A stretch of DNA of 37,327 nt from an uncultured Fluviicola sp. (lineage in GTDB: Bacteria; Bacteroidota; Bacteroidia; Flavobacteriales_D; Crocinitomicaceae). The translations under genes and the position numbers were made by a program. The stretch spans positions 1 through 37,327 of the forward strand of contig CALFOS010000307.1 in the NCBI GenBank assembly GCA_937919725.1. The letters run 5' to 3'. The notes under the pieces are model-generated. The model searched no databases, had not been told where the DNA came from, and was given only the letters and a program-made list of their open reading frames with translations. Of the stretch, positions 13,088 to 37,327 are shown piece after piece (position 1 is the first letter of the stretch; every line of letters starts with the position of its first letter).

Positions 13088-13948
13088 ATGGCGATTTATA
13101 CGGATCAAATGAATTCAACAATCCGACTGGGTATCCCGATAGCTATAGGTACCATTCGGATTGTTTCTTTAGTGCCATCTCAAACTGAACTCCTGCATTA
13201 TTTGGGATTGGAAGAGGAGGTGGTCGGAATCACGAAATTCTGTATTCACCCAAAATCATGGTTCGATTCGAAAACGCGGATTGGCGGCACGAAATCCGTT
13301 GATATTGAAAAAGTTCGCACCCTAGAACCCGATCTCATCATCGGAAATAAAGAGGAAAATACGAAGGAAGACATCGACGCGCTCCGCGAAATTGCACCCG
13401 TGTGGATGAGCGATATTTCTACGTTGGATGATGCGATCGAAATGCTGCAACTTCTCGGCGAAATATTGAACAAGAAAGTAGAGATTGATCAGTTGGTTTT
13501 TGAAATTAGAAGCGAGTTCGATGCCTTGCGAAAGTTCAGTTCGACTCATCCGACACTGCCGAAGAAGAAAAGCAACGCCTTGAAAGTGAACGAAGGTTCT
13601 CCTACTGCGAAGCTTAATGGAAAAACGGTCCTTTATTTCATCTGGAACGAACCACCTTTTTTGGCAGGAAAAGATACGTTTATCGACGCGATGTTGAACG
13701 CATGTGGATTGGTCAACGCCACTTCTGTCGTCCGTTATCCCCAAGCAGATCCATCGATTCAACCGGATTTTGTGTTCCTGAGTTCGGAGCCGTTTCCTTT
13801 CGAGGAAAAACACATCGAAAAATTCCGAGATGTGTATCCAACTTCCAAAATTATATTGGTGGATGGCGAACAGTTTTCGTGGTATGGATCGCGTTTGAAA
13901 ATTGCCCCGAAGTACTTTCAGAGCTTACTTGAATCGCTAGTTAATTAA
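13088..13948 (+). CDS. Helical-backbone periplasmic metal/cobalamin-binding protein (BtuF-like)
   Basis: 'RIVSLVPSQTELLHYLGLEEEVVGITKFCIHP', 'KVRTLEPDLIIGNKEEN', directly abutting the preceding stop (TAAATG). Confidence 0.85.
   Translation: MAIYTDQMNSTIRLGIPIAIGTIRIVSLVPSQTELLHYLGLEEEVVGITKFCIHPKSWFDSKTRIGGTKSVDIEKVRTLEPDLIIGNKEENTKEDIDALREIAPVWMSDISTLDDAIEMLQLLGEILNKKVEIDQLVFEIRSEFDALRKFSSTHPTLPKKKSNALKVNEGSPTAKLNGKTVLYFIWNEPPFLAGKDTFIDAMLNACGLVNATSVVRYPQADPSIQPDFVFLSSEPFPFEEKHIEKFRDVYPTSKIILVDGEQFSWYGSRLKIAPKYFQSLLESLVN
13134..13151. repeat. Degraded copy of the TCCCGAT-N4-ATCGGGA palindrome inside the BtuF-like CDS
   Basis: TCCCGAT AGCT ATAGGTA; same 7+4+7 layout as 37228-37245, two mismatches in the right arm. 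Confidence 0.55.
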
Positions 13949-36861: not shown

Positions 36862-36877
36862 GCATTAAGTGAAAGAC

Positions 36878-37153
36878 ATGAATCCACAAATCGACATTCA
36901 AGACGACGTATTAACGATTGAGAAAGCCGTAGACAAAAAAGACTTGGTTGTGTTCAACGACGACTTCAACACATTTGACCACGTAATCGATGCCCTGATC
37001 AAAGTATGCGAACACGAACCGATGCAAGCTGAACAGTGTACATTTTTGGTGCATTACAAAGGCAAATGTCAGGTAAAACGCGGCGACTACGAAACGCTTG
37101 AGCCTATGTGCGTTGCCTTGCACGACCGAGGAATTACCGCAGAAATTCAATAA
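36878..37153 (+). CDS. clpS: ATP-dependent Clp protease adaptor ClpS
   Basis: 'LVVFNDDFNTFDHVIDALIKVCEHEPMQAEQCTFLVHYKGKCQVKRG'; alternative GTG at 36869. Confidence 0.93.
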   Translation: MNPQIDIQDDVLTIEKAVDKKDLVVFNDDFNTFDHVIDALIKVCEHEPMQAEQCTFLVHYKGKCQVKRGDYETLEPMCVALHDRGITAEIQ

Positions 37154-37168
37154 AATTAATTGGAGTTG

Positions 37169-37199
37169 TTGGTCAACAAGAAAAAACAGTGTATATTTG
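37169..37199 (+). promoter_or_regulatory. Bacteroidota-type promoter: TTG (37169-37171) and TATATTTG (37192-37199)
   Basis: -33/-7 layout with a 20-nt spacer immediately upstream of the tRNA-like region. Confidence 0.6.
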
Positions 37200-37209
37200 C
37201 ACTCCAATT

Positions 37210-37276
37210 GGATTCGTAGCTCAACTGTCCCGATAACGATCGGGAAGAGCAAAGAACTAAAAAGGTTAGAATAAAT
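37210..37276 (+). pseudogene. Degenerate tRNA-like copy carrying a palindrome in its D-loop and lacking a recognisable anticodon arm
   Basis: GGATTCGTAGCTCAACTG matches the tRNA-Arg 5' end (GGCTTCGTAGCTCAACTG) at 17/18 positions; AGAGCA retained; AGGTTAGAAT resembles a T-arm. Confidence 0.6.
37228..37245. repeat. Palindrome TCCCGAT-AACG-ATCGGGA
   Basis: Perfect 7-bp inverted repeat with 4-nt loop. Confidence 0.8.
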
Positions 37277-37327
37277 GGCTTCGTAGCTCAACTGAATAGA
37301 GCACTACATTACGGCTGTAGAGGTTTC
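37277..37327 (+). tRNA. tRNA-Arg(ACG), 3' end beyond the window
   Basis: Acceptor GGCTTCG, TA, D-arm GCTC-AACTGAATA-GAGC, anticodon stem CTACA/TGTAG with loop TTACGGC giving anticodon ACG. Confidence 0.88.

Follow-up and report, generated by a model that had tools for sequence, protein, structure and literature searches.

A palindrome-capped, tRNA-like leader and a recurrent arrangement at Bacteroidota tRNA genes

Between a promoter and the start of a tRNA-Arg(ACG) gene lie 67 nt that look like part of the same tRNA with a palindrome set into its D-loop. An earlier note on this DNA had offered three readings of that stretch: a decayed duplicate, a tRNA-like leader or RNase P substrate, and a place where a short palindromic element has landed. 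Which of these applies is the question addressed here, starting from the window (the whole 37,327-nt stretch analysed, which is the entire contig C307) and extending to the same locus in relatives, other tRNA genes and other genomes of the phylum.

The tRNA-Arg locus and its displaced copy

All features of the locus lie on the forward strand. The ATP-dependent Clp protease adaptor gene clpS (36869–37153; Pfam PF02617, E 1.9e-16) is the conserved upstream neighbour of tRNA-Arg(ACG), and is followed by a Bacteroidota-type promoter (37169–37199) with the architecture that had been described for it, namely TTG (37169–37171), N20 and TATATTTG (the -7 box, 37192–37199). Throughout the genus clpS, promoter and tRNA-Arg(ACG) follow one another in this way, and the promoter is nearly unchanged across relatives, with the -7 region aligned in nine of them. 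The tRNA, previously taken to be intact, is present in its 5′ part and cut off by the contig end: its 51 nt (37277–37327) match Rfam RF00005 as a 3′-truncated hit (22.4 bits) and are identical to the start of complete tRNA-Arg(ACG) genes in the relatives G022 and G028. ARAGORN found no complete tRNA at the window end, and the rest of the gene was not found elsewhere in the assembly, a draft genome (G000) of 3.04 Mb in 315 contigs in which only 18 tRNAs were found. Many of its tRNA genes stop or start only a few bases from a contig end (C61, C67, C19, C150, C110 and C307), and contigs probably break at tRNA genes as a result of tRNA sequence common to co-occurring relatives.

The displaced copy occupies 37210–37276. 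Its first 18 nt (GGATTCGTAGCTCAACTG, 37210–37227), corresponding to the acceptor strand and the 5′ side of the D-arm, match the tRNA start (GGCTTCGTAGCTCAACTG, 37277–37294) at 17/18 positions, which confirms the single mismatch counted by the earlier note. Part of the D-loop is replaced, as the note had also seen, by the palindrome TCCCGATAACGATCGGGA (37228–37245; 7-bp stem, 4-nt loop), a member of a dispersed family that here takes the 3′ part of the loop, as in some loci elsewhere in the phylum. The 3′ side of the D-stem survives as AGAGCA (37246–37251), including the GAGC partner at 37247–37250 that had been recognized before. In the AT-rich remainder (37252–37276), the T-arm-like sequence of the note is AGGTTAGAAT (37263–37272), which matches the T-loop of tRNA-Arg(ACG) in close relatives (AGGTTTGAAT or AAGTTTGAAT) at no more than 9/10 positions and is weak on its own. 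The stretch folds at -17.6 kcal/mol (z = -3.5) into a structure made of the D-stem and the palindrome. It has no complete cloverleaf: in a tRNA check of the kind that the note had proposed, neither the Rfam tRNA model nor ARAGORN matched 37210–37276. An Rfam search of the leader returned nothing credible, with matches to DUF2815 and SNORA55 far below the gathering score.

A draft genome whose contig ends inside a tRNA invites the suspicion of an assembly artefact or a chance resemblance. However, the 17/18 match sits beside a family palindrome within continuous unique sequence, and the same design recurs in many independent assemblies, including those of cultured strains; an assembly chimera therefore seems unlikely, and artefact or chance is the least probable of the explanations considered here.

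In relatives, orthologous tRNA-Arg leaders are short and unrelated and carry neither a tRNA copy nor a palindrome. Because these loci share clpS and the promoter yet are without the copy, the displaced copy is, as far as sampled, a lineage-specific insertion. The earlier note had regarded a lack of tRNA-like sequence in related genomes as grounds for abandoning the remnant interpretation; that lack holds at the tRNA-Arg locus, where it points to a gain in one lineage and leaves the remnant interpretation standing.

Capped partial copies at other tRNA genes

The upstream regions of 113 tRNA genes in four close genomes were surveyed without selection for palindromes. Capped half-copies were found at tRNA-Leu(TAA) in G000, G008 and G022, with G028 an empty site, and at tRNA-Arg(TCG) in G028 (with CTCCGATAGTTATTGGAA) and G022 (with another hairpin, TTTCGTTGAAA); tRNA-Ser(GGA) in G000 is a weaker and less clear case, recognized by inspection alone. 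A displaced 5′ half without a D-loop hairpin was not seen in any of the 113 regions. When each tRNA was aligned with its own upstream region and complete neighbouring tRNAs were set aside, five cases came near the top, with scores (9 to 15) inside the upper tail of the control. In the spare tRNA-Leu(TAA) copy of three loci (L006, L145 and L212), the acceptor partly follows species changes in the intact tRNA (GCCTAGA/GCCCGGA; GCTTGAG/GCTCGAG), which hints that gene conversion has acted or that duplication has happened more than once. In G000, tRNA-Phe and tRNA-Ser(GGA) also have displaced 3′ ends downstream of the intact genes (L153 and L152), that of tRNA-Phe behind a GAAGCAGTGCTTC hairpin. 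An odd, degenerate tRNA array in G022 (L217; C57, 45000–47200) has palindromes in a variable arm and a T-loop.

These loci bear on the proposal that selection maintains the capped half-tRNA as a 5′ leader, through which the tRNA precursor would be tuned in its transcription, folding or processing. Its position between promoter and tRNA, its stable fold (z = -3.5) and the tRNA-Leu(TAA) version in three species would fit such a role. However, it is missing from orthologous tRNA-Arg loci and from tRNA-Leu(TAA) of G028, the leaders of orthologous loci are short and unrelated although the promoter is shared, the tRNA that carries the feature varies from species to species, and displaced 3′ ends downstream of a tRNA cannot be leaders at all. 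A conserved regulatory leader was rejected as the main reading because orthologous leaders differ, and a functional leader of any kind, including the RNase P substrate of the earlier note, is improbable.

Across the phylum, the pattern GTAGCTCA-N(0-8)-CCGATNNNNATCGG-N(0-8)-GAGC, which selects for the palindrome and for its D-loop version, returned 61 loci from 85,462 species genomes. By hand count, the same intact tRNA lies 50–507 nt downstream in 45 of the 61, all Bacteroidota, and in 0 of the 11 loci from outside that phylum. The tRNAs at the 45 loci are Phe, His, Met, Gly, Arg, Trp, Asn and Lys, and the cultured genera among these loci include Belliella, Algoriphagus, Muricauda, Winogradskyella and Leeuwenhoekiella. 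At most loci GCTCA-GTT-GGTTAGAGC has become GCTCA-palindrome-GGTTAGAGC; at some, the palindrome lies in the 3′ part of the loop. Some displaced copies (L262, L279, L295 and L307) keep almost the whole tRNA and have a further palindrome in a different arm. The comparison draws on draft assemblies, and hairpin counts vary with thresholds. The arrangement is phylum-wide but patchy. Both the decayed duplicate and the landing site of the earlier note are supported, and spare copies and palindromes go together at many tRNA genes.

A tRNA-Thr(TGT) copy in a Saprospiraceae metagenome-assembled genome (L270) is complete save for a palindrome in the D-loop, and the same genome has an intact copy on another contig. 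In a Woesearchaeota tRNA (L276, 3203–3238) the D-loop region is enlarged by a hairpin segment that may be an intron and is unrelated to the Bacteroidota pattern.

Palindromes and GIY-YIG genes

The perfect palindrome CCCGATNNNNATCGGG is present in G000 in 8 copies (0 for the reversed control), and the 18-mer with up to 2 mismatches in 37 (1 for the reversed control); the palindrome in the window is not a chance sequence. The close relatives G008, G022 and G028 have 12, 18 and 23 palindromes, and many genus members have none. Away from tRNAs, the palindrome in this clade frequently caps a longer stem, in most cases a terminator (7/15 in G000, 4/12 in G008 and 16/21 in G028, against ~1% of random positions), a preference that was absent in the more distant G036; the D-arm, like these terminator tips, is a hairpin. 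Nucleases were not seen near palindromes on terminator tips. Palindromes differ among some displaced copies, so that no single palindrome sequence is required. A RAYT/Y1 transposase was considered as the mover of the palindrome and rejected, having no match in G000 or G022 (nor PF01797 in G000). The matches listed for the palindrome sequence in the open-access literature were, judging by title, seemingly chance matches of primer type. The window holds a second, imperfect copy (TCCCGATAGCTATAGGTA, 13134–13151) near the start of the open reading frame at 13088–13948, and the leaders of tRNA-Val, tRNA-His and tRNA-Leu(TAG) (L003, L014 and L015) contain a short GCGAACGAGC-based hairpin 3′ of the promoter, with related forms in relatives.

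Long spacers between a displaced half and an intact tRNA-Asn (L259, from Mucilaginibacter; L277; and L283, from Winogradskyella) encode a GIY-YIG protein of ~97 amino acids, the domain being confirmed by Pfam in L259 and L283. In G000 itself, a GIY-YIG gene separates tRNA-Leu(CAA) from its displaced 3′ end, which has a T-loop palindrome (L143), and the stop codon of the GIY-YIG reading frame falls inside that palindrome. The family is assigned by Pfam match, and a role in DNA cleavage is putative. At the same tRNA in G008 (L142, 1459–2100; contig C43), three displaced tRNA-Leu(CAA) 3′ ends stand in tandem, each with a T-loop palindrome and with a terminator copy behind it, and a GIY-YIG-like reading frame seems to be left in only one of the three units.

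Two surveys started from GIY-YIG genes, picked regardless of palindromes. Among 30 PF01541 loci in relatives, a tRNA was present in 10 and a displaced copy in 8; the hairpins at these 8 comprise 5 defined by script and 3 that are imperfect or offset and were found by eye. Among 30 class-wide homologues of the L283 protein, a tRNA was in the locus in 26 and a displaced partial copy in 22. Hairpins accompany 18 of these copies by script, where ~10% of random 80-nt windows also score, and 3 by eye (L340, L345 and L357), so that ~21 class-wide pieces carry a palindrome in the D-, anticodon or T-arm; for one or more of the 18 (L358) the hairpin chosen by the script was a terminator, but a CCCCGATTCATCGGGG palindrome also lies beside the copy. 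Tandem GIY-YIG units recur 320–404 nt apart in several genomes. Displaced copies without a GIY-YIG gene are common among the scan loci, and displaced 3′ ends downstream of a tRNA are equally found. These surveys, with the scan, show an arrangement that recurs in Bacteroidota: beside an intact tRNA, and in some cases a small GIY-YIG gene, stands a displaced piece of the same tRNA capped by a palindrome in the D-, anticodon or T-arm. Among the results listed by open-access literature searches for GIY-YIG genes or palindromes at Bacteroidota tRNAs, no paper describes this arrangement.

The main rival to a GIY-YIG origin treats the palindrome as a selfish or repair-borne repeat that spreads independently to any hairpin tip, with ordinary tandem duplication making the spare tRNA pieces, dispensability letting palindromes survive in them, and GIY-YIG genes as mere co-residents of tRNA flanks. 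The stem-tip palindromes away from tRNAs (7/15 in G000 and 16/21 in G028, against ~1%), the several different palindromes at displaced copies and the many displaced copies without a GIY-YIG gene are all as it would predict. Yet palindrome-blind GIY-YIG genes separate an intact tRNA from its own displaced copy much more often than mere co-residence would allow. G017 and G020 hold just 1 and 2 palindromes, and in both genomes one of them adjoins such a GIY-YIG gene. On balance, independent spread appears rather unlikely.

Proposed origin and closest known systems

We favour, as the probable explanation, that the 67 nt derive from a spare copy of the neighbouring tRNA-Arg(ACG), decayed to its 5′ half and a T-loop trace and capped by a palindrome, and that it is the solo, nuclease-less form of a tRNA-associated GIY-YIG element of homing type. 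The window locus has the spare copy and the arm palindrome; its ~25-nt spacer contains no GIY-YIG gene or trace of one, and because of this absence we term it a solo relic rather than a full member of the element.

By analogy with the phage enzyme SegB, we propose nuclease-triggered duplication, loop capping and later loss of the nuclease. A GIY-YIG nuclease of the family would break DNA at or near a tRNA gene, and repair would leave a spare tRNA piece in tandem, whether or not the nuclease gene came to lie in the middle, and always with one working tRNA. The spare piece, free of selection, would keep a palindrome at a hairpin tip, the original loop sequence being lost thereby, and later the nuclease gene would disappear, as would the greater part of the spare piece. 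We infer both the causal part of the GIY-YIG protein in tRNA duplication and the way in which the palindrome gets into the spare copy. Palindromes on terminator tips with no nuclease nearby speak against this reading, and palindromes may stem from some other process, to which spare tRNA copies are simply an acceptable site. A bolder version, which we put forward only tentatively, is that a tRNA-riding GIY-YIG family acts phylum-wide, duplicating part of its target tRNA and writing palindromes into the loops of spare copies and terminators, so that the tiny palindromes of Bacteroidota would be footprints of a nuclease at DNA hairpin tips.

The tRNA-Arg leader changes from an oddity to one case of an unexplained arrangement that recurs in a major bacterial phylum. 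Three things usually handled apart are linked by it: orphan GIY-YIG genes, partial copies of tRNAs and palindromic repeats of very small size. It offers a direct test of how short palindromes enter hairpin loops, and suggests that tRNA genes may be acted on by GIY-YIG proteins of the chromosome, much as has been proposed for SegB. It also warns annotators that such loci can give false tRNA calls and break assemblies.

Integrative elements that use a tRNA as target typically leave partial tRNA copies, and an attachment-site fragment, like the displaced copy, lies beside an intact tRNA. A scar of this kind is nonetheless very improbable here: the copies examined showed no integrase or island in between or alongside, spacers go down to 15–50 nt, displaced pieces include 5′ as well as 3′ halves, and palindromes occupy several arms. 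Among very short dispersed repeats in genes and structured RNA, Rickettsia palindromic elements, cyanobacterial small dispersed repeats and fungal mitochondrial double-hairpin elements are likewise self-complementary; the palindrome described here probably differs from them in sequence, and is found at displaced tRNA loops and terminator tips with GIY-YIG genes as frequent neighbours. REP sequences and their RAYT transposases share the short dispersed palindromes (PMC3733652), whereas the palindrome sequences inspected here have no constant GTAG tag, and no RAYT/Y1 match was found in G000 or G022. The nearest experimentally studied parallel is SegB, a free-standing GIY-YIG homing endonuclease of T-even phages. 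SegB is phage-borne, whereas the Bacteroidota genes are chromosomal, and palindrome-capped tRNA pieces do not figure in the part of the SegB description considered here (PMC13096335). In that same part, the enzyme is encoded beside the phage tRNA genes and is needed for tandem amplification of a tRNA segment, and the Bacteroidota loci resemble it in both respects, with a small GIY-YIG gene beside tRNA genes and units in tandem (PMC13096335).
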